The notes beneath the pieces were generated by a model. It saw only the letters and a list, made by a program, of their open reading frames with translations, had not been told where the DNA came from and made no database searches. Of a stretch of 22,691 nt of DNA, positions 7,150 through 18,706 are shown one piece after another. How positions within the stretch are numbered: the first letter of the stretch is position 1; each line of letters starts with the position of its first letter. The position numbers and the translations under genes were made by a program. Source of the stretch: a virus; IMG/VR virus record IMGVR_UViG_3300004369_000683, positions 1 to 22,691 of that record. One strand, 5' to 3'.

Positions 7150-7437
7150 ATGGCTCAGATCCGAAGAACTATCACGAACCTCGATCAAGCGTTCGAGATC
7201 ATCGTCGCAGAAGCACGAGACCGTTTCGACGGCAAAGAACTGCGATACCTCAGCAAGGACCAGAAAACCGAAGCAGTCCTCCTGATGCGAGACCTTGGCG
7301 TCCTCAACCTGAGAGAAGCCATCAATAAAGTCGCCCGTGAACTACATCGATCACGGGTTTGGGTCTACAACGTCATCAAAGCAGACGAATTCATGCTAGA
7401 TTTATCTAGAACAGATCGGGAGGAGCAGACCCAATGA
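7150..7437 (+). CDS. YheO/DauR-type HTH DNA-binding protein
   Basis: The 95-residue protein has its recognisable part at about 38-78: KDQKTEAVLLMRDLGVLNLR, then EAINKVARELHRSRVWVYNVI. This is the helix-turn-helix layout found at the C-terminus of YheO/DauR regulators (L-x2-x-G-V-x-x-L-R-x-A-x-x-x-V-A-x-x-L ... VYN). The N-terminal half is basic and helical. Its promoter has a perfect TTGACA, suggesting early strong expression, and the gene is translationally coupled by ATGA to the DUF932 gene. Near its 3' end lies the inverted repeat CTAGAT-TT-ATCTAG, a possible operator. Regulator function is inferred. Confidence 0.75.
   Translation: MAQIRRTITNLDQAFEIIVAEARDRFDGKELRYLSKDQKTEAVLLMRDLGVLNLREAINKVARELHRSRVWVYNVIKADEFMLDLSRTDREEQTQ
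7396..7409. repeat. Inverted repeat CTAGAT-TT-ATCTAG in the HTH gene
   Basis: The repeat is perfect, with 6-bp arms and a 2-nt centre. It contains AGATTTATCT, which also occurs exactly at 13771-13780 and 19669-19678. It is a candidate operator; the coding frame passes through it, so it may instead reflect codon choice. Confidence 0.45.
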
Positions 7438-9523: not shown

Positions 9524-11431
9524 TCAAGAATTTTTTCGGAACAGCGACATGATCAGTTGAGACACCGATGTTTCCTCGGTTTCAGCGTCCCCACCATCCG
9601 TCGCCTGATTCACGACTGAGCGTTTCCGCTCAATCAAATCATAGATTTCTTCATCGATAGAGCCATTTAGCAGTAAATAGGTAGCCGTCACCGAACCCGT
9701 CTGCCCAATCCGGTGACACCTACTGTACGTCTGGTCAACATCCGCCGGAGTCCACGGCAACTCCACAAACAAAACGTCCTGTGATGCCGTCAACGTATGC
9801 CCGGTCTTCGCCGCCTGAATCGACAAAACCATAACTTTTGCGTTCGGGTCAGTTTGGAACGCCTCCTTAGCCGCCTCAATGTCCACCACATCCATCTCGC
9901 CCTGAATCTTGTAGCCACCATATTTGTTGGCCAACATGTCCACGATGTCACGATGGTGCGCCGCAACTACAACTTTCCGGGACTCCGCGAGCCGGCCCTC
10001 GATCCACTCCTCAATCGCAGGCATCTTCGCCTTCGCAGCCAATCTGCGCAAAATGCTAATCCGCACGAGATGCTGATTAGCCTCCGCTTTCAGACGAGCC
10101 TGAACAGCCGCCGACTTCGGACTCAACCCCAACTCCTCAGCGATTTCCACAGCCCTATCCACAAGGTACTGGACAATGTCCCTCTCGGCTTTCCGGTACT
10201 CCTTCATCGCTGCAGCCCCGCCATCAACCACAACCGGGTCATGAACGACTGGCGGCAGTTCCGTCAAAACTTGGTCTTTTGTTCTCCGGATGTAACACGT
10301 TGACCGCAAACGATCGTTGAGTTCATCAAGATTCGATGCGCCCTCTAGATGCCATTGCCCCCACTTGTCACGGAAAGCGTCGCAATACCTGCGGTAGAAA
10401 CCCCATTCGCCTCCGAACTTTGATAACTGTCCGATGATGCCGAGTTGAGGTGCGTACTCTGCTGGCCTGTTCGTGATCGGGGTGCCTGTGAGGAGGATCA
10501 CCGGGACTTCAGGGCCCGCGCCGGCGGCAATCTTCTTCGCTGCTTTGGTTCGCTGTGACGTTCCGTTCTTGCAGTAGTGGGATTCGTCAAAGACGTAGCC
10601 GTTCTTGCCTTTCAGTTGTTCAGCCCAATGAGCGATGTTTGAGTAGCCGACAACCAGAACCTCATAGTTTTGTGGGATTTCCTTGCGGTTCTCGACAACT
10701 TGGCAGTCCCGGTGCGGCAGCCAGCGGGCGTACTCCTTCTGCCAGTTGAGGACAAGTGTGGGTGGGCAAACCACAACACATGGGTATGCGTGCTGTTTCT
10801 CAATGGCGGCAATGGCTTGGAGAGTTTTCCCCAACCCCATCTCGTCGGCAATGAAACCTTTCTTGACTTTCGTGATGTAGTTGACGCCAGCCTTCTGGTA
10901 ATCCAGCAGCGTCGCTCGAAGTCCCGCGATCTCCAGATCCGCCTCAACGGAACGGCTTGCTTCCAACATTTGTTGCCGTTCGGCGCGGAGGTTGTCGTGT
11001 TCATCTGTCAGGTTGCGTGGTACAGCAACACCAAACCGGTTAGACCATTCGATGACTTCGCCGAGGGACGTCTTCGGGGCTGCCCAGAGTTTGCGCTTCT
11101 GATCCCATGTGATTCCGGGGATTTGCTTCACCGCTTTGATGCGTACACGTTCGTAGGGGAATGAGATGAGAACTGTGTCGCCGTCCTCGCTGATGCCTTC
11201 GGAGTGTTTGCGTTCGGGGAGTGTGAGTCGGGCAACTTCCTCTGTCATGGAGTACCCGTACTTGTCAACGAAGTCCCGGGCTGCGGCTAACTCGGCGACG
11301 GGTATTTCCCACAGTTTCGCACGTTTGTTCCACTTGGCACCGTTGATGCGTTTGATGGTTGCGACTTCTTCGGGGACGTAGGGCGTGTCGATGACGAGAA
11401 CGTCGGTGTCAAGGTAGAGGTTTACGTCCAC
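9524..11431 (-). CDS. SNF2-family helicase with tandem HARP-like repeats (SMARCAL1-like)
   Basis: The protein is about 635 residues. Two similar N-terminal segments (about 26-45 and 101-120; each with W-x3-x-KLW) look like tandem HARP-type substrate-recognition repeats. The ATPase follows: DEMGLGKT (about 194-201, Walker A), VVCPPTLVLNW (Ia), DESH (II, about 282), LTGTP (III) and RCHRIGQTG near the end (VI), all SNF2 signatures. SMARCAL1-like enzymes anneal or remodel branched DNA at stalled forks, so a role in phage replication or recombination is likely. GTG at 11431 is preferred because TAAAGT lies 6 nt before it; a TTG at 11437 is the alternative. Confidence 0.92.
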   Translation of the reverse strand: MDVNLYLDTDVLVIDTPYVPEEVATIKRINGAKWNKRAKLWEIPVAELAAARDFVDKYGYSMTEEVARLTLPERKHSEGISEDGDTVLISFPYERVRIKAVKQIPGITWDQKRKLWAAPKTSLGEVIEWSNRFGVAVPRNLTDEHDNLRAERQQMLEASRSVEADLEIAGLRATLLDYQKAGVNYITKVKKGFIADEMGLGKTLQAIAAIEKQHAYPCVVVCPPTLVLNWQKEYARWLPHRDCQVVENRKEIPQNYEVLVVGYSNIAHWAEQLKGKNGYVFDESHYCKNGTSQRTKAAKKIAAGAGPEVPVILLTGTPITNRPAEYAPQLGIIGQLSKFGGEWGFYRRYCDAFRDKWGQWHLEGASNLDELNDRLRSTCYIRRTKDQVLTELPPVVHDPVVVDGGAAAMKEYRKAERDIVQYLVDRAVEIAEELGLSPKSAAVQARLKAEANQHLVRISILRRLAAKAKMPAIEEWIEGRLAESRKVVVAAHHRDIVDMLANKYGGYKIQGEMDVVDIEAAKEAFQTDPNAKVMVLSIQAAKTGHTLTASQDVLFVELPWTPADVDQTYSRCHRIGQTGSVTATYLLLNGSIDEEIYDLIERKRSVVNQATDGGDAETEETSVSQLIMSLFRKNS

Positions 11432-12227: not shown

Positions 12228-12386
12228 GGTTCGCCCCGAACCGAGGAGGGAGAAAAAAGAAAAAACCTCCGTCAACCCGCATCCTGACTGCCCGGTAGCG
12301 GGGCTATCGGCCCGGGGAGGACTCCTCACACGCAGGAGGCACAGTAACCATGCTTAGGCGTGGATACCCGACTGGAGTCCTTACGC
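12228..12386. other. Structured intergenic region with polypurine tract
   Basis: No gene is visible here. From left to right: a perfect hairpin GGTTCG-CCC-CGAACC (12228-12242), which on the minus strand precedes a T5 run and could be a terminator; a 23-nt purine tract ending A6-G-A6; a GC-rich hairpin at about 12294-12316; and TAGGCGT/ACGCCTA arms (about 12356-12390) enclosing a segment that is also complementary to AGGACTCC near 12318. The last two pairings could form an H-type pseudoknot or switch. A plus-strand 23-codon frame with AGGAGG before it (12351) is not claimed as a gene. Confidence 0.4.
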
Positions 12387-12611
12387 CTAGAGAGCCGGTT
12401 TACGCCACTTGTAGGGCGTGAAGTCCCGGTTCACAGCATCCGCCAGTTCCTCGGACTCGTAGAGGCGAACAACATGGTGGCACGGATCTGACCCCTGCTC
12501 CCATTCTGCTTCCTCTTCCTCCGACATGGGGATTCCGTCATGGGTGGAGCAGACCGCAGAGCCACACCACTTGTTGTCGACCCCGATTTGGAGCCATTCG
12601 TCGAACGTCAC
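12387..12611 (-). CDS. Small conserved phage protein with Cys/His pattern, 74 aa
   Basis: The GTG at 12611 is chosen because it overlaps the upstream stop by 4 bp (GTGA) and has AGGAGG 7 nt before it; a TTG at 12617 is too close to that site. The product reads MTFDEWLQIGVDNKWCGSAV and continues with C-x-T-H-D-G and GSDPCHHVVRLY. This pattern (W-C-G ... C-x2-H-D-G ... D-P-C-x-H) recurs in small actinophage proteins that I recall as unassigned. Zinc binding is possible. It ends in an acidic-to-basic tail (DFTPYKWRKPAL). Confidence 0.78.
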   Translation of the reverse strand: MTFDEWLQIGVDNKWCGSAVCSTHDGIPMSEEEEAEWEQGSDPCHHVVRLYESEELADAVNRDFTPYKWRKPAL

Positions 12612-12757: not shown

Positions 12758-13139
12758 GTACCCAATAATACCCCTTACCCGGGCTATTTACAACACTTTC
12801 GTGAGGTTTTCTTGACAAATCTGGTTTTGACGCCGGCGCAGCCCCGTCTTCTTCGAGAACACAATCCCAGCCACAAGCGGCGTATCCAGCAAGATCAATC
12901 CAGTTGTCCTCCTTCTCAGGCGACCACGAGATGCGAGAAAGTTTCAGACACATCATCAACGCAGCAACATCGTGCGGTTTGAGAGAAACCGGGGCTCCGA
13001 GGCGGCGGCTGAGGTACGCAGACCACATCTCGGCAGTTGTCCGGAAGTCGGAGATCGGGTCGCCGTAATCGACGTTTCTGTCGCCGTTGACCAGACGATC
13101 GGCTTCGGACAGGACTCGGGTGCGGTTGCTTTTGCTCAT
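12714..13139 (-). CDS. DUF6378-like phage protein
   Basis: The 141-residue protein contains the pattern I associate with DUF6378: EADRLVNGDRNVDYGDPISD, a W-x-A-Y-L helix, then KPHDVAALMMCLKLSRISW and DNWIDLAGYAACG. Function is unknown; the family is common in phages. Leaderless translation is indicated by TAAAGT 6 nt before the ATG and TTGACG 18 bp above it. The last ~27 codons (after SRKPHESV) are also the promoter region of the next gene, so the C-terminus overlaps regulatory DNA and the next gene by 44 bp; the conserved domain ends before that. Confidence 0.8.
   Translation of the reverse strand: MSKSNRTRVLSEADRLVNGDRNVDYGDPISDFRTTAEMWSAYLSRRLGAPVSLKPHDVAALMMCLKLSRISWSPEKEDNWIDLAGYAACGWDCVLEEDGAAPASKPDLSRKPHESVVNSPGKGYYWVHGEEAEIQTKGLER
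12765..12793 (-). promoter_or_regulatory. AATAAG-family promoter variant (for 12608-12757)
   Basis: Minus strand TTGTAA (12793-12788), 17-bp spacer with GGTAAGGGG in place of AATAAG, TATTAT (12770-12765), 7 nt, ATG. It lies inside the 3' end of the DUF6378-like gene. TTGTCAAGAAAACC upstream matches the conserved AT element of the family. Confidence 0.72.
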
Positions 13140-13331: not shown

Positions 13332-13484
13332 TCAGCGACGACGATTCTTCCAACCCTCGGGGACGGCAAAGCCCCAGCGAAGGTCGTCTTGATCGATGGT
13401 CTCCTCCTCTGGGTCATCAAACCCGAAGAGTTCGTCCAACAACGATTCCTCGTTCTTCTTCATCTCACCTCCCCCCATCTCCAT
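13332..13484 (-). CDS. Small acidic protein, 50 aa (or 43 aa from an internal start)
   Basis: Two starts are possible. ATG at 13484 lies 7 nt after the TAACCT -10 (leaderless, 50 residues); ATG at 13463 has a strong GGGGGGAGG ribosome-binding site 4 nt before it (43 residues). The shared part is acidic (KKNEESLLDELFGFDDPEEE) and ends in a basic WKNRRR. The G-rich site is exactly complementary over 10 nt (TGGGGGGAGG) to the loop of small RNA 1, so its translation may be RNA-controlled; this is inference. No family is recognised. Confidence 0.7.
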   Translation of the reverse strand: MEMGGGEMKKNEESLLDELFGFDDPEEETIDQDDLRWGFAVPEGWKNRRR

Positions 13485-13491
13485 ACTCTTT

Positions 13492-13520
13492 AGGTTACTG
13501 CTTATTAGGCATAACGACAA
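13492..13520 (-). promoter_or_regulatory. AATAAG-type promoter (for 13332-13484)
   Basis: Minus strand TTGTCG (13520-13515), 17-bp spacer with CTAATAAGCAG, TAACCT (13497-13492), 7 nt, ATG. Confidence 0.82.
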
Positions 13521-13599
13521 CCTCTGAATCATTTTTTCCCATAAAGATGCTGACACTTAGACAACCCGTTTCGCACGGACATTTGTTAGCGGGAGCCCC

Positions 13600-13640
13600 A
13601 TTTCTTTTTCCACAGATTTATCCACAGGGTGTGAAAAAGT
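13600..13640. repeat. DnaA-box-like block, copy A
   Basis: This 41-bp block contains a perfect DnaA box TTATCCACA (13618-13626), a TTTTCCACA and a reverse TGTGAAAA. It is about 86% identical, with two single-base gaps, to the block at 16495-16535. It lies in a gene-free stretch (13485-13883) between leftward genes and is a candidate replication origin or regulator-binding site. Confidence 0.6.
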
Positions 13641-13737
13641 CAGAAAACAGCGACCCTGCACGAAACCCACACATGGTCACCACAAAACCCATGCCCAGCA
13701 ACGGTTTTAGCGCGCAGCCCCGGTCGAGTGGCCCAAA

Positions 13738-13765
13738 TGACGCAAGGTATGACGGTGGAGGAAAG
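13738..13765. repeat. CGGTGGAGGAAAG repeat, copy A
   Basis: This 28-bp block matches 16596-16623 at 23 of 28 positions; its last 13 bases are identical there. A shorter version (CGGTGGGGGAAAG) occurs at 21894-21906. It is followed by AGATTTATCT at 13771-13780. The rest of the gene-free stretch shows a GC-rich AGCCCCGG block at about 13716, and no convincing gene. Confidence 0.6.
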
Positions 13766-13883
13766 CGAACAGATTTATCTACAACGAGCACACTTCGGGC
13801 GATGACCCAAAGTTCTGTTCACGAAAGCAGGCTGTGGTTGTTGAGGGGTTTTTGGCGGGGCTACCGGAGCCGCCGGCGTCTGG

Positions 13884-14033
13884 TCAGACTCGTCCTTGGC
13901 CACGGTACTTCTTCTTGTAGTTCTTGGAGGTCGGAGACTGCGACGAACCACGCTTGGCATGAACACCTTTGCGCTTTGGCTTCTGCGTCTCAACAACAAC
14001 GCCGAACGAACTTGACCGAGAAGGCTTTGCCAT
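13884..14033 (-). CDS. Small basic conserved phage protein, 49 aa
   Basis: The ATG at 14033 is preceded by AAGGAG with a 5-nt gap, so this mRNA has a leader. The product (MAKPSRSSSFGVVVETQKPK, then RKGVHAKRGSSQSPTSKNYK and KKYRGQGRV) matches a small protein pattern common in tailed phages: K-R-K-G-V-H-A-K ... S-K-N-Y-K-K-x-Y-R-G-Q-G. It is very basic, and nucleic-acid association is likely. I recall this pattern as conserved but unassigned. A longer frame on the same strand (13775-13999) is out of frame with it and was not accepted. Confidence 0.85.
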   Translation of the reverse strand: MAKPSRSSSFGVVVETQKPKRKGVHAKRGSSQSPTSKNYKKKYRGQGRV

Positions 14034-14103
14034 GACTGCTCCTTACTACCCGTACCTTACACAGATAGTTTACCGCAGCAGCCCCGGCGGCGGCCCCACG
14101 ATT

Positions 14104-15189
14104 TCAGCGAACCACCGCAGTCACTTGGTGCTTGATAACCAACGGAGCATGATCTGGCCCCTTGATGTGCGGAGACACGAACGTCATACGACGAGCCTCA
14201 GGGTCAGCCTGCTCACCCAACTCCTTGTACCATTGACGACGCCAATAGCCACGGACGAAGATCTGGTGATCCAAACCAGTCCCCGTGCCAGTCCCGTCTT
14301 CATGGCCCGCACGACGTTGGCGACGAAGCCGAAGCGTAGTGACTTGGCCGTCCCACTTGGCCTTAGATGCCTCACGCTCAACAGCACGACGCTCCAAACG
14401 GGAGAACTCCGAGCCAACTGGTTTGCGAACGAGGATCTCCTGCCAGCAGAAGCGCATCAACGAAAGGAAGAACTTACGCATGTACGCTACGTCTGGGGTA
14501 GCGACCAGAAAGCCCTCCGGGGCTTCATGCTCCTCATCAGTCCACTTCTGAGTGAATGACCAAGCGTGGAAGTCCATGATGTAGAGGCTTTGCCCCTGTC
14601 CAGCGAGACGTTCGATCATCGTCTCTTTCTCTCCGTCTTCGTGCGATTCCATCACACGATCAACAGCCTGTTTCAGCAACTCGCCGTTGGTGTAGATCAT
14701 CAGCGAAAGACCGGAAGATTTAGTCCCGTCCATGTTGGTGACTTCGGTGACTTTCCATCCAACACCGCACCAACCGACAGATCCGGTAACGAACCGTTCG
14801 TCCTCAAACTTGAGTGGCTTGCCGAACATGATGAAACCTTTATCGGCAATGAGATCGTCGTAGCGAATCGGCTCAGGTTCCATGATGGACGCACCGTAAT
14901 CAAGCAACGTCATGATCTCAGGGCTGATCCATGTGGTTGGGTTGCCAAGGATCATCCGTTCCAGTTGGAGGAGTCCGTATGTTCCTTCCAGTTGGCTCAT
15001 TTTGTCGTCAACGTCACTACGGCTTGACATGGAACGCCATAGTGCTAGAGCCTGAATGAAAACGTCGTGGTCGACAGTCCCGTCACGCGGGTCTCCCCAA
15101 CCGGAGCGTGCGCCATTATCAAGTGTGTGACGCACCCGTTTGGCACGGTCGTTGTGGTGTCGAACGGAGTCGGCGATGCCGTACTTCAC
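14104..15189 (-). CDS. Conserved phage hypothetical protein, 361 aa
   Basis: The GTG at 15189 overlaps the upstream stop by 4 bp (GTGA); an extension to 15261 would lie inside that gene and was rejected. The 361-residue protein has an N-terminal segment (HHNDRAKRVRHTLDNGARSG, then a WRSMSSRSD helix) and a central domain (GKPLKFEDERFVTGSVGW, DFHAWSFTQKW). The C-terminus is basic (LRLRRQRRAGHEDG, YWRRQWYKELGEQ, ending FVSPHIKGPDHAPLVIKHQV). I recall the IKGPD-x-APLVIK ending from unassigned actinophage proteins. The many arginines suggest nucleic-acid contact. Function unknown. Confidence 0.8.
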   Translation of the reverse strand: MKYGIADSVRHHNDRAKRVRHTLDNGARSGWGDPRDGTVDHDVFIQALALWRSMSSRSDVDDKMSQLEGTYGLLQLERMILGNPTTWISPEIMTLLDYGASIMEPEPIRYDDLIADKGFIMFGKPLKFEDERFVTGSVGWCGVGWKVTEVTNMDGTKSSGLSLMIYTNGELLKQAVDRVMESHEDGEKETMIERLAGQGQSLYIMDFHAWSFTQKWTDEEHEAPEGFLVATPDVAYMRKFFLSLMRFCWQEILVRKPVGSEFSRLERRAVEREASKAKWDGQVTTLRLRRQRRAGHEDGTGTGTGLDHQIFVRGYWRRQWYKELGEQADPEARRMTFVSPHIKGPDHAPLVIKHQVTAVVR

Positions 15190-15431
15190 TTGTAGGTACC
15201 GCCGTCGAACAGGAACGCACGATGGCGATGTCCAGCGAGATGAGTGCCACAGGCGTCGCACGGAGCCTTGGAGAACTCCAAGCAGTATTCCTCGTTCTCA
15301 CCGCAGTCAATGATGAGGTTGTCGGGGAACGCCTTGACTTCGGCCTCACGAGCCTCGTCGTCCAGACCGGTCAGGTCGGCGTTGGCATGCCACATAGTGC
15401 AGTCGGTACAGATCATCATTCCGTCATCCAT
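15186..15431 (-). CDS. Small zinc-site protein, 81 aa
   Basis: The ATG at 15431 lies 7 nt after TATCGT, so the start is leaderless. The product has two C-x2-C pairs, CTDC (8-11) and CDAC (58-61), with H15 and the histidines of GTHLAGHRHRA beyond, fitting a zinc ribbon. The middle is acidic and includes NLIIDCGENEEYCLEF. The C-D-x-C-G-T-x-L-A-G-x-R-H ending recurs in small actinophage proteins. It is coupled by GTGA to the 361-aa gene. Confidence 0.82.
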   Translation of the reverse strand: MDDGMMICTDCTMWHANADLTGLDDEAREAEVKAFPDNLIIDCGENEEYCLEFSKAPCDACGTHLAGHRHRAFLFDGGTYK

Positions 15432-15438
15432 GTACAGA

Positions 15439-15467
15439 ACGATACCGCTTATTCGCTACAACAACAA
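15439..15467 (-). promoter_or_regulatory. AATAAG-type promoter (for 15186-15431)
   Basis: Minus strand TTGTTG (15467-15462), 17-bp spacer with GCGAATAAGCGG, TATCGT (15444-15439), 7 nt, ATG. TGTCAAGAAATCT, the conserved upstream AT element, begins just after the tRNA gene. Confidence 0.87.
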
Positions 15468-15495
15468 CCTGAGTCAAAAGATTTCTTGACATTCG

Positions 15496-15568
15496 TACCC
15501 CCCGTGGGACTCGAACCCACAACTAACGGGTTAAAAGCCCGCTACTCTGCCAGTTGAGTTAGAGGGGC
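15496..15568 (-). tRNA. tRNA-Lys (anticodon UUU)
   Basis: The minus strand folds into a complete 73-nt cloverleaf. The acceptor is GCCCCTC/GGGGGGT with two G-U pairs, the D arm ACTC/GAGT, the anticodon stem GCGGG/CCCGT with loop CTTTTAA, and the T arm GTGGG-TTCGAGT-CCCAC; the discriminator is A. The 3' CCA is not encoded. It is transcribed with the small-gene operon upstream and lies directly before the promoter at 15439. It may compensate for AAA lysine codons in phage genes. Confidence 0.95.
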
Positions 15569-15578
15569 CGGCGGGGCT

Positions 15579-15785
15579 TCAGAACAGGCTTTCTTCCTGC
15601 CATCCGCCCTCTTTGCGCCTATTGATGTCGTAGCACGCCTTGTGGAAGTAACGGTACTTCTCGTTCTCAATAGCGAAGTACGTCTTCGCAGCCCCGGCGA
15701 TCCACACCTCCGCCAACCTCACACACGATGCGGCCTTGATGTCGTAGATCGTGTTTCCGCAGGTTTCGCAATAGTGGAGGCTCAT
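15579..15785 (-). CDS. Small zinc-site protein, 68 aa
   Basis: The ATG at 15785 follows the preceding stop by 3 nt. The product begins MSLHYCETCGNTIYDIKAAS with C-x2-C at 6-9. A likely second half of the site is H48 and C51 in YFHKACYD, a zinc-ribbon-like arrangement resembling the 46-aa protein at 16138-16278. The C-terminus is basic then acidic (NRRKEGGWQEESLF). It is the last protein gene of the operon before the tRNA. Confidence 0.78.
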   Translation of the reverse strand: MSLHYCETCGNTIYDIKAASCVRLAEVWIAGAAKTYFAIENEKYRYFHKACYDINRRKEGGWQEESLF

Positions 15786-15788
15786 GCC

Positions 15789-15956
15789 TCAGTATCCTAC
15801 CGGAGCGATGTGCAAGCCGTAAAGGACTGATGTGTCGTAATCCTCACGATTTGCGTCAATCCAGCGGATGCATTCATCCAGCGAGCCTTCGAACTCCGGG
15901 ACTTCGGAATCTGGGAGACAGCCGAGAGAGTGGTACCAGACAACGTGGGTTTTCAC
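15789..15956 (-). CDS. Small hypothetical protein, 55 aa
   Basis: A GTG start at 15956 overlaps the previous stop by 4 bp (GTGA). The product reads MKTHVVWYHSLGCLPDSEVP, then EFEGSLDECIRWIDANREDY, and ends with HIAPVGY. The H-V-V-W-Y-H-S-L-G-C-L-P-D opening is one I recall from small actinophage proteins; function unknown. Context as the fourth member of a five-gene overlapping run supports it strongly despite its size. Confidence 0.8.
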   Translation of the reverse strand: MKTHVVWYHSLGCLPDSEVPEFEGSLDECIRWIDANREDYDTSVLYGLHIAPVGY

Positions 15957-16141
15957 TTGACCAACTCCTTCGTCTCGGTCTCAACGATCTGCCATGTGGC
16001 GATGCCCTCGTGAGTCTTGGCGACCTTTTGGAGTCCCGCCTCGATGACTCGACCGAAGTACGACGGGTGCCATTCGTCGCAATCCTCGCAGTCCATCGTG
16101 AGGTCGATGGTCACACGAACCGTGTGTCGTGGCATTGTCAT
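15953..16141 (-). CDS. Small acidic protein with CxxC, 62 aa
   Basis: The ATG at 16141 overlaps the previous stop (ATGA) and has GGAAGGGG nearby; a second in-frame ATG two codons on is possible. The product begins MTMPRHTVRVTIDLTMDCED and has one C-x2-C pair (18-21) followed by W-H, then a helix (FGRVIEAGLQKVAKTHEG) and a strand (IATWQIVETET). It probably forms a small mixed domain; no family is recognised. Confidence 0.76.
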   Translation of the reverse strand: MTMPRHTVRVTIDLTMDCEDCDEWHPSYFGRVIEAGLQKVAKTHEGIATWQIVETETKELVK

Positions 16142-16278
16142 TCCCCTTCCTGTAGGAACGCCTCGTACTCCATGTGATCTGAAGCACGATCGTATTGGAA
16201 CTGGTCGTAGCACCCCTTGTGGGCGTGCTTGTAGTCGTCGATGGGGTCGATTTGCCCACCGCAGAAGTCGCATTTCAT
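16138..16278 (-). CDS. Small zinc-site protein, 46 aa
   Basis: The ATG at 16278 overlaps the upstream stop by 4 bp (ATGA). The product begins MKCDFCGGQIDPIDDYKHAH and continues KGCYDQFQ. C3-x2-C6 and H20-x2-C23 form a plausible zinc site, similar in layout to the 15579-15785 product. The second half is acidic (DHMEYEAFLQEGE). A longer frame to 16374 lies inside the preceding gene and was rejected. Confidence 0.8.
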   Translation of the reverse strand: MKCDFCGGQIDPIDDYKHAHKGCYDQFQYDRASDHMEYEAFLQEGE

Positions 16279-16436
16279 TTGAGCATCATCCCTTCGTAGA
16301 CGGTCTCGTAGTTGTCGAACATCCCATCTTGAGCCGAAATGTATTCGATCCATTCGCCGTAGCAGGTCTCGCACAGGTCATCGAACCCCTGAGCGTCGTC
16401 GCAGGCTTGTGTGTGGAACTTTCCCCGATCAGTCAT
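16275..16436 (-). CDS. Small zinc-site protein, 53 aa, first of a five-gene run
   Basis: The ATG at 16436 lies 6 nt after the TTTACT -10, so the message is leaderless. The product (MTDRGKFHTQACDDAQGFDD, then LCETCYGEWIEYISAQ) has a C-x2-C pair plus one more Cys and a His, suggesting a partial zinc site. The C-terminus is acidic (DNYETVYEGMMLK). It heads the overlapping run 16436-15789, whose members are all small and mostly Cys-rich. Confidence 0.78.
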   Translation of the reverse strand: MTDRGKFHTQACDDAQGFDDLCETCYGEWIEYISAQDGMFDNYETVYEGMMLK

Positions 16437-16442
16437 AGGTAC

Positions 16443-16471
16443 AGTAAACAGGTTATTCAGCATAATCACAA
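16443..16471 (-). promoter_or_regulatory. AATAAG-family promoter (for the five-gene run)
   Basis: Minus strand TTGTGA (16471-16466), 17-bp spacer with TGAATAACCTG, TTTACT (16448-16443), 6 nt, ATG. TGTCAAATAAATCT lies upstream and directly abuts the DnaA-box-like block at 16495. Confidence 0.85.
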
Positions 16472-16494
16472 CCTGATTCGCAGATTTATTTGAC

Positions 16495-16535
16495 ATTTCT
16501 TTTCCACAGGTTTTTCCACAGGCTGTGGACAAAGT
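16495..16535. repeat. DnaA-box-like block, copy B
   Basis: This 41-bp block has TTTTCCACAGG twice and then CTGTGGACAAAG, so three TTNTCCACA-like boxes in both orientations. It is about 86% identical to 13600-13640 and is followed, as there, by a GC-rich block and the CGGTGGAGGAAAG repeat. Confidence 0.6.
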
Positions 16536-16595
16536 TTCGATTTTTCCGTTTTTCGGCAGCCAACCAGAACGCCGGCGGCGGCCCCGGCAAAAGTG

Positions 16596-16623
16596 TTGCG
16601 CAAAGTAACACGGTGGAGGAAAG
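16596..16623. repeat. CGGTGGAGGAAAG repeat, copy B
   Basis: This block matches 13738-13765 at 23 of 28 positions. It ends three bases before the stop of the gene at 16626. Between it and the DnaA-like block lies a GCCGGCGGCGGCCCCGGC stretch (about 16571-16588) that can form a hairpin. Confidence 0.6.
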
Positions 16624-16625
16624 GG

Positions 16626-17066
16626 TCAGTCATCATCCGAAAAAGCCGAGTGAAACACCTTACAAGGCACCCAACGATACTCGTCAGTTGCGCCTTCCTC
16701 ATTCGGGCTGTCCTGCCACAAATGGAACTCCGTGGCCCCTTTCTCCGGGACTTCGTAGCGCAGCGAGAAGTCGTTACCCGCATGAATCATAAAATCAAGC
16801 AGTTCATGAACAAACTGGATGCGCACGAAACCCGAGTCACGGGTGTACGACAGGTCGTCGTTCTGGACGATGATGTTGGAGAACCCAAACCACAGCGTTT
16901 TGGTCTGGCCCCACCAGTCCCGGATCGACTCCTCAAAATCGAAGCGTTGCCATTCCCAACAGTTGCCAAGACATTCGTCCACTTCGGTTCCGCTGTCGTC
17001 AACGCAGTCGCAGACGTATGTGGAAAAGAACTTGGTCGTGTGCGGAGGTTCAGTAAAGGTATCCAC
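16626..17066 (-). CDS. Hypothetical protein, 146 aa
   Basis: The GTG at 17066 lies 7 nt after TACCAT, with TTGTGA 18 bp further up, so a leaderless GTG start is inferred; a longer frame would run through the promoter. The product has an N-terminal cysteine group (STYVCDCVDD, DECLGNCWEW), then an aromatic-rich middle (DWWGQTKTLWFGFSNIIVQN) and an acidic end (FSDDD). It may be a small zinc- or disulfide-stabilised domain. No family is recognised. Confidence 0.74.
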   Translation of the reverse strand: MDTFTEPPHTTKFFSTYVCDCVDDSGTEVDECLGNCWEWQRFDFEESIRDWWGQTKTLWFGFSNIIVQNDDLSYTRDSGFVRIQFVHELLDFMIHAGNDFSLRYEVPEKGATEFHLWQDSPNEEGATDEYRWVPCKVFHSAFSDDD

Positions 17067-17073
17067 TTGACAA

Positions 17074-17103
17074 ATGGTACCAGAGGGGTGTGTTAGATCA
17101 CAA
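17074..17103 (-). promoter_or_regulatory. GGTTGT-type promoter (for 16626-17066)
   Basis: Minus strand TTGTGA (17103-17098), 18-bp spacer without the AATAAG core, TACCAT (17079-17074), 7 nt, GTG. It shares the GGTTGTGAT -35 with the promoter at 16443 but has lost the spacer motif. Confidence 0.62.
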
Positions 17104-17133
17104 CCAGATCGCGGGACTTCGGCGGCGTCCGGG

Positions 17134-17448
17134 CTAATCAAACCACGACGGGTTCATCCACGACAATTCCTCCAAGACGCGCTTCACCCCGGTCTCACGG
17201 TTACATTCGACGGCTTCCAAGATGAGTTCCAGCCCCGTCTTCAGCATTTTCTCGGAAGACCCGACAGGCATAGCCGTACAGTACGAGCCGTTATCCACAG
17301 ACTCCCACACGCCGTCTTCTGCCAACTCCATAACATCGAAGCGAAGCAGTTCTACGTCGTCGGGGTTGTCTGGGTTGTAGTCGCCGTCCCACCCTTCGCC
17401 TATGTCTGACCACATGACTTTGAGGTCACCTTTGACGAGTTCCATCAT
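17134..17448 (-). CDS. Hypothetical acidic protein, 104 aa
   Basis: The ATG at 17448 overlaps the upstream stop by 4 bp (ATGA). The product is acidic and starts MMELVKGDLKVMWSDIGEGW; an Asp/Asn/Pro-rich loop (DGDYNPDNPDDVELLRFDV) resembles a short calcium-like loop but shows no proven EF-hand. The C-terminal part is helical (EKMLKTGLELILEAVECN) and ends WMNPSWFD. The opening is reminiscent of unassigned phage proteins with a G-E-G-W-x-G-D-Y-N-P-x-x-P-x-D pattern. Function unknown. Confidence 0.78.
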   Translation of the reverse strand: MMELVKGDLKVMWSDIGEGWDGDYNPDNPDDVELLRFDVMELAEDGVWESVDNGSYCTAMPVGSSEKMLKTGLELILEAVECNRETGVKRVLEELSWMNPSWFD

Positions 17449-18259: not shown

Positions 18260-18706
18260 TTATTCCGAAGATTTTTTGACAGATTCTCCGTAGCCGTACT
18301 TACACGCCACAAGAATCGCCGGATGGTAGTTGTGCCACCAGTCGTCGTCCCAGCCCAAAATCACCTCAGCCAGAACAGCCAACTCCTCGTCGGACGCCCC
18401 GGTCGCCCACTTCAGAGCGTCAGCGTCAGGATGGTTCGGGTCGTAATCCAACATCCCAGAATCGAGCATAACTTGGGCTTCCTCACGAATGGCGGTGGGG
18501 GAAAAGGCCACACAGTTACCCCATGCGAGATCGTTTTCAGCCAAGTTGATCGGTTTGCCGTGTTCCCGCATGACAGCGAGTGCTTCGGTCTCGTCATACT
18601 CACCGTATGTGAGATTCTCAAAGAAACGCGGGGCTGCGCCGGCGTCAACGATTTGACAGGACTCAACGAGCCAGACTTGTCCCTCAGGCGTAAAAAGGTA
18701 TTTCAC
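18260..18706 (-). CDS. Hypothetical acidic protein, 148 aa
   Basis: A GTG start at 18706 with GGAGG 7 nt before it overlaps the upstream gene by 23 bp. The product starts MKYLFTPEGQVWLVESCQIV and contains FFENLTYGEYDETEALAVM, an acidic middle (DYDPNHPDADALKWA) and WDDDWWHNYHPAILVACKYG. It looks like a small globular protein of unknown family. Its last codons (SVKKSSE and stop) coincide with the AT element of the next promoter. Confidence 0.78.
   Translation of the reverse strand: MKYLFTPEGQVWLVESCQIVDAGAAPRFFENLTYGEYDETEALAVMREHGKPINLAENDLAWGNCVAFSPTAIREEAQVMLDSGMLDYDPNHPDADALKWATGASDEELAVLAEVILGWDDDWWHNYHPAILVACKYGYGESVKKSSE

Follow-up and report, generated by a model that had tools for sequence, protein, structure and literature searches.

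The window (the whole stretch of DNA that was analysed, 22,691 nt, positions 1 to 22,691 of the record IMGVR_UViG_3300004369_000683) is a 22.7-kb contig from a large phage of Actinobacteria. Encoded on it are a WhiB protein, a primase/helicase, an SSB, an SNF2 helicase, and an RHH-like protein, and there are many small genes. Two of its gene-free gaps (13485-13883 and 16437-16625) contain the same series of elements, namely one 33-bp block of three DnaA boxes followed by a GC-rich stretch and a 28-bp block (Table 1). In both copies of the 33-bp block, the three 9-mer boxes are arranged direct-direct-inverted with their starts 12 bp apart. The box TTNTCCACA occurs eight times in the window, where 0.94 copies are expected, and five of the eight lie inside the two modules (both direct boxes of module 1 and all three boxes of module 2). 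The sixth module box, the inverted box of module 1, matches the looser consensus TTNTNCACA. Clusters of at least two boxes within 40 nt are found twice in the window and in none of 2,000 dinucleotide-preserving shuffles. The 33-bp cores of the two copies are 85% identical, and the modules are separated by 2,894 bp from start to start.

The original prediction described these modules as duplicated in gene-free gaps, with a perfect TTATCCACA at 13618, a 41-bp block of about 86% identity, and a 28-bp block with 23 of 28 positions identical. The intergenic duplication and the perfect box were borne out, and the figure for the 28-bp block was reproduced exactly. The identity of the 41-bp block is as described when one single-base gap is allowed in a T-run; compared without a gap, the copies are identical at 30 of 41 bases (best 23 of 41 in shuffles). 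The assignment of the boxes as DnaA boxes is well supported, and the identical three-box geometry recurs in many phages. Features that had been overlooked are the dispersed element CGGTGGnGGAAAG, of which further copies are present, the promoter element that completes each module, and a LexA-like palindrome beside module 1.

Table 1. Features of the two modules and of the genes that border them
Feature	Position	Strand	Details or basis
Small gene, putatively driven by module 1 promoter	13332..13484	-	start 13484 or 13463
Promoter element P, module 1 (AGGTTGT-N9-TAATAAG)	13501..13523	-	-10-like hexamer next, start codon about 7-10 nt further
Degenerate LexA-like palindrome CGGACATTTGTTAG	13576..13589		2 mismatches; located where relatives carry LexA boxes; suggestive only
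DnaA block 1	13606..13638	+	boxes 13606-13614 (+), 13618-13626 (+, perfect TTATCCACA), 13630-13638 (-, TTTTTCACA)
GC-rich stretch GCGCAGCCCCGGTCGAG, module 1	13711..13730		sequence reading
28-bp block 1, ends CGGTGGAGGAAAG	13738..13765	+	block comparison
Weak fourth DnaA-like box TTATCTACA	13775..13783	+	box search
50-aa basic protein gene, opposite side of module 1	13884..14033	-	DNA conserved in L158, L145, L150
Small gene, putatively driven by module 2 promoter	16275..16436	-	ORF reading
Promoter element P, module 2 (AGGTTGT-N9-GAATAAC)	16452..16474	-	element search
DnaA block 2	16500..16532	+	boxes 16500-16508 (+), 16512-16520 (+), 16524-16532 (-, TTGTCCACA)
GC-rich stretch, module 2	16572..16590		sequence reading
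28-bp block 2, ends CGGTGGAGGAAAG	16596..16623	+	block comparison
Gene with 3' end bordering module 2	16626..17141	-	homologs in G010, G008, G019

Read along the minus strand, which is the gene direction, each module runs from the upstream gene through the 28-bp block, the GC-rich stretch, and the DnaA block to a promoter-like element and a small gene. The promoter-like element (AGGTTGT-N9-GAATAAG) is present in eight copies in the window at up to three mismatches and is absent from the shuffles. Most copies fit a TTGT motif (-35-like), 17 nt, and a TANNNT-like hexamer; an A/T-rich stretch lies upstream of the element, and in relatives the element is mostly oriented along the gene direction. 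Many of the mRNAs from this promoter family may be leaderless since the start codon often lies 7-10 nt after the -10-like hexamer. A search for a T7-type polymerase, a candidate reader of the CGGTGGnGGAAAG element, gave no match, and neither did its control. Each DnaA block has one member of the promoter family 26-83 bp downstream of it, in keeping with DnaA-regulated promoters, where DnaA boxes lie within about 100 bp of the promoter. The region within approximately 125 bp upstream of promoter elements also holds the O and D arrays of the relatives G010 and G008 and two single O boxes of G019. The closeness of block and promoter is weak evidence because intergenic gaps hold promoters anyway. 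Simple repression is not an obvious mode of action since the -35 region is not covered by the sites, which are upstream of it; any effect of bound DnaA on transcription would presumably be activation or modulation from upstream.

Relatives of the phage were found by a search with the SNF2 helicase (18 loci), and clear synteny with the window is seen in G010, G008, G019 (137 kb), G003, and G004. Two viral scans with neighbouring proteins yielded few or no additional relatives, and the exact arrangement of the window is kept in none of the relatives for which sequence was at hand. The module 1 promoter and its leader have 77-78% DNA identity to G019 and G008 (L158 and L150) and are thus orthologous to the promoter in these phages. 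In these relatives and in G010, the slot upstream of this promoter contains palindromes of the CGAACNNNTGTTCG type. G008 has five of them, spaced 19 bp and including a degenerate one, G010 has four, and G019 has a single copy, whereas the same slot in the window contains three DnaA boxes and one degenerate palindrome. An intact CGAAC-N4-GTTCG, as expected of a LexA (SOS)-controlled promoter, is present at the promoter in G010, G008, and G019, and the window has only the copy with two mismatches. The LexA array of G008 sits between two divergent promoters. G010 carries both kinds of site. At 12332-12396 two palindromes adjoin a pair of DnaA boxes, and at 9789-9821 there is a block much like that of the window (27 of 33 bases by eye). 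The exchange of DnaA and LexA boxes at one promoter, together with the presence of both in G010, suggests that these slots receive signals of replication and DNA damage in the host.

We tentatively propose that the two modules each serve as the control region for a single transcription unit in a large actinophage, a reading that we regard as quite possible. The three-box block is likely a high-affinity assembly site for host DnaA and, since it is placed just upstream of a promoter of the AGGTTGT-N9-GAATAAG family, promoter output would depend on the DnaA state of the host. In relatives, the same promoter would take LexA (SOS) boxes as its input, and G010 would use both kinds together. Most likely, the blocks are sites through which host DnaA (and LexA) give input to phage promoters, and at these gaps the virus is probably reading, or borrowing, its host's replication and damage signals.

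Blocks of this type are also carried by isolated phages. A search with an idealised three-box block, whose ranking favours DnaA-box-rich phages in general, matched about 59 Streptomyces phage records as well as large Microbacterium phages and Lactococcus phage 949. The Streptomyces examples that were examined are Stanwilliamsviridae or look-alikes, and the matching segment falls in a gap without annotation. In the Stanwilliamsviridae and in phage 949, the block lies in gene-free gaps of 1.1-1.7 kb, and in Faust this gap is the largest in the feature table. The isolates vary in the number and spacing of boxes: the 12-12 layout is present in Faust, Wakanda, and 949, LukeCage and Anedea are without a good middle box, and the spacing in EGole is wider. 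The genes that flank the block are codirectional in Faust, Karp, Annadreamy, and Wakanda and convergent in EGole, LukeCage, Anedea, and Lactococcus phage 949, and in Rudy the block is located at a genome end. Since convergent gaps need no promoter, replication, titration, or structure is the more likely function of the block there. It is these isolates that speak most strongly against a role in transcription only, and the general role of the block may differ from the one proposed for the window.

Clusters of DnaA boxes are a hallmark of replication origins, and the window has such clusters in non-coding gaps. The blocks could be DnaA-dependent phage origins, or parts of them, with the nearby promoter supplying transcriptional activation. 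The large gaps of the isolates, some of which are convergent and hence promoterless, are consistent with this model, as is the resemblance of an array with palindromic repeats to the iteron/DnaA-box layout of plasmid origins. An origin should, however, be conserved in close relatives. No TTNTCCACA cluster is present in G019 (all 137 kb) or in G008 (18.5 kb) despite proteins that are largely 60-88% identical to those of the window, and G010 has three separate array sites, its DnaA clusters being in other gaps than those of the window. GC skew is monotone across the window, and in nine other records its extrema do not consistently coincide with arrays. An origin at these sites is rather unlikely. 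The original prediction had offered two origins or a shared control region and had named a GC-skew switch as a check; the control region is well supported, and two origins are unsupported for this phage family, in which LexA boxes replace the DnaA block at the orthologous promoter and the skew gives no consistent signal for the modules. In the family of the window, the exchange of boxes at one promoter and the loss of the block in two relatives make a regulatory input more plausible than an essential origin.

The two box types also occur together beyond this family. A search for the composite pattern CGAACRNNYGTTCG-N0-30-TTATCCACAG matched 57 viral contigs, of which 34 are non-redundant, and 78 contigs of bacterial genomes, almost exclusively from Actinobacteria; a rough chance estimate from base counts alone, with the size of the viral set only approximate, gives a few genome matches and about one viral match. 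The LexA and DnaA boxes are interleaved in the viral arrays, and WhiB is encoded in most of the phage contigs that carry them (20 of 26 records). In 57 of the 78 genome contigs, recA starts 23-223 bp downstream of the pattern, and in one further contig (L342) the downstream gene resembles, by eye, an error-prone polymerase alpha subunit. By its sequence, the phage palindrome is a LexA box, identical to the SOS box that precedes host recA; the LexA-box pattern read backwards, as a control, was found in 0 of 30 records. An earlier survey of palindromes at 73-75 viral DnaA-box pairs found LexA boxes in two independent lineages only and is too weak alone. The better test is an unbiased set of 78 loci, selected solely by a DUF6378-like protein. 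It contained 11 non-redundant DnaA-box clusters, and among 1,024 palindromes of the 5-N4-5 form CGAAC-N4-GTTCG ranked first beside these clusters (6 of 11 versus a mean of 0.14). BLAST of the L218 array against isolate phages and plasmids gave no match at strict E-values, and phages rich in DnaA boxes appeared once E-values as high as 10 were allowed. Crude gene calling around the arrays was too noisy for separating promoter-bearing from convergent gaps.

A search of 16 records, array-bearing or related, found neither a DnaA_C nor a LexA DNA-binding domain, making host proteins the likely readers of these sites. It is very unlikely that the boxes are instead operators of a phage-encoded regulator and merely look like DnaA boxes. 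The phage does encode RHH-like and WhiB proteins and repeated operators are common among phage regulators, but phages that are unrelated and differ in gene content have the same 9-mers, alongside true LexA boxes. The arrays reach 10-12 sites (six LexA and four DnaA in L289, five LexA and seven DnaA in L045) and are not bound to any single gene. Both properties would suit decoys whose copies, amplified by phage replication, titrate host DnaA (and LexA in relatives), thereby stopping host initiation and loosening SOS repression, and extra DnaA boxes on plasmids titrate DnaA (PMC5835720). The window holds only six to seven boxes, however, and titration would leave the strict geometry and the promoter proximity unexplained, so we consider decoys unlikely here.

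DnaA boxes in phage DNA were already known, whereas the composite LexA/DnaA array appears to be undescribed. It is possible, and put forward tentatively, that composite arrays, undescribed until now, are widespread in actinobacterial phages as an input of host state or a sink for host regulators and resemble the host recA promoter, with phages keeping both box types or, as in the window, the DnaA half only. If true, many actinobacterial phages carry built-in sensors or sinks for DnaA and LexA, the two central DNA-status regulators of the host, and phage development would be linked, in a concrete way that can be tested, to the timing of host replication and to the SOS response. The Stanwilliamsviridae isolates (for example Faust, Karp, and LukeCage) carry a like DnaA-box block in an unannotated gap, making the DnaA half testable in culture.

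The geometry of the block resembles that of the E. coli K-12 elements DARS1 and DARS2 (PMC4245941), whose cores likewise consist of three boxes with one opposed to two. The starts of boxes II and III are 12 bp apart in both, but those of boxes I and II are 14 bp apart in the two DARS and 12 bp apart in the window, and the block thus does not have the DARS spacing. Among 73 non-redundant viral sites chosen for having two direct DnaA boxes, a third box that is inverted and placed at +24/+25 is preferred, as in the window (12 exact, 17 with one mismatch). The orientation and this preferred viral geometry would fit a DARS-like element that promotes the release of ADP from DnaA and raises ATP-DnaA in the infected cell. 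Such a function is nevertheless very improbable given the different I-II spacing, and the DARS compared are those of E. coli, and regenerated ATP-DnaA would aid the host too.

The proposed input of host DnaA to phage promoters has precedents in the E. coli repair genes and in phage lambda. In E. coli, DnaA and LexA act together as repressors of uvrB, recN, and dinJ, and uvrB has seven DnaA and four LexA boxes (PMC6015884). These are repair genes of a host chromosome with the E. coli LexA box, whereas the sites described here are at phage promoters with an SOS box of the Gram-positive type, and the intact sites of the window itself are DnaA boxes only. In lambda, DnaA binds near the pO promoter, and DnaA-stimulated transcription at ori-lambda has been reported (PMC3985674 and its references). 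The pO/pR region thus also has host DnaA boxes near a phage promoter, but its two boxes lie downstream of the promoter and within a known origin with O-protein iterons. Actinobacterial recA promoters are alike in having, upstream of a promoter, CGAACRNNYGTTCG with TTATCCACAG in the next 30 bp, and differ in that a host gene is concerned and that there is a single LexA box, usually with a single DnaA box, in place of arrays. The promoters of Bacillus phage GIL01 read host LexA via tandem LexA boxes; in GIL01 the LexA boxes lie within the promoter and there is a phage partner, gp7, and the abstract of that study names no DnaA boxes (PMC6182141). Phage T5 also carries DnaA boxes and repeats in non-coding DNA; there the DNA concerned is the terminal repeat of an enterobacterial phage (injection-stop or first-step-transfer DNA), and the proposed role is in two-step DNA entry (PMC13250531).

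The window shares with related phage contigs a family of near-identical phage promoters, consensus AGGTTGT-N9-GAATAAG, that is present in about 10 copies per genome (also found in records L146, L150 and L158). An A/T-rich stretch lies upstream of these promoters, and a -10-like hexamer is followed by a start codon 7-10 nt on; this suggests leaderless mRNAs. YTTNACGGTGGNGGAAAG is a dispersed element that keeps one constant strand independent of the direction of the neighbouring genes, and in G019 (a related contig of 137 kb) it is restricted to the region from about 120 kb to the contig end plus the first 1.4 kb. GC-rich words of the GCAGCCCCG type recur across many gaps of the window's phage group, and perfect 20-bp copies of TTGACGCCGGCGCAGCCCCG lie inverted within two window genes.

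The gene at 14104-15261 sits between modules 1 and 2 (the two gaps with DnaA boxes and a promoter element), as does a tRNA gene. Its homologs in the related contigs G010 and G019 (about 30% identity) are located elsewhere, adjoining a gene that resembles window 7150-7437; this different site marks the window gene as either relocated or a paralog.

In the unrelated phage contig G024, two DnaA-box arrays lie about 2.9 kb apart, at about 21.2 and 24.0 kb, and the second also contains two LexA boxes (SOS palindrome CGAAC-N4-GTTCG). The related contig G008 carries five LexA boxes at 19-bp intervals, one of them degenerate, flanked by two divergent phage promoters.

In actinobacterial genomes, a LexA box is paired with TTATCCACA in recA promoters (57 genome loci), with a conserved spacing (38-39 bp in Bifidobacterium). 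This combination suggests that DnaA provides an input on actinobacterial recA. The same LexA/DnaA pair also precedes a coiled-coil membrane protein gene in three actinobacterial MAGs (L332, L348, L383), and by eye the protein looks like a DivIC/FtsB-type septum protein.

Positions of repeated elements, box arrays and associated loci
Feature	Record	Positions	Strand
AGGTTGT-N9-GAATAAG promoters	window	12187, 13501, 15448, 16452, 18238, 19639, 20718, 20798, 20892	
YTTNACGGTGGNGGAAAG copies	window	13753, 16611, 21894	
YTTNACGGTGGNGGAAAG copies	L158 (G019)	2360, 5226, 7766, 11354, 15512, 16080, 16467	
YTTNACGGTGGNGGAAAG copies	L152	870, 1342	
YTTNACGGTGGNGGAAAG copies	L146	456, 2769, 5683, 9310, 13364	
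TTGACGCCGGCGCAGCCCCG copies	window	12827-12846, 18629-18648	
tRNA-Lys(ttt) gene	window	15495-15568	minus
DnaA-box arrays of G024	L404	1155-1174, 4040-4164	
LexA-box array of G008	L150	12128-12328	
recA loci with LexA box and TTATCCACA	L364, L328, L331, L335, L323 and 52 others
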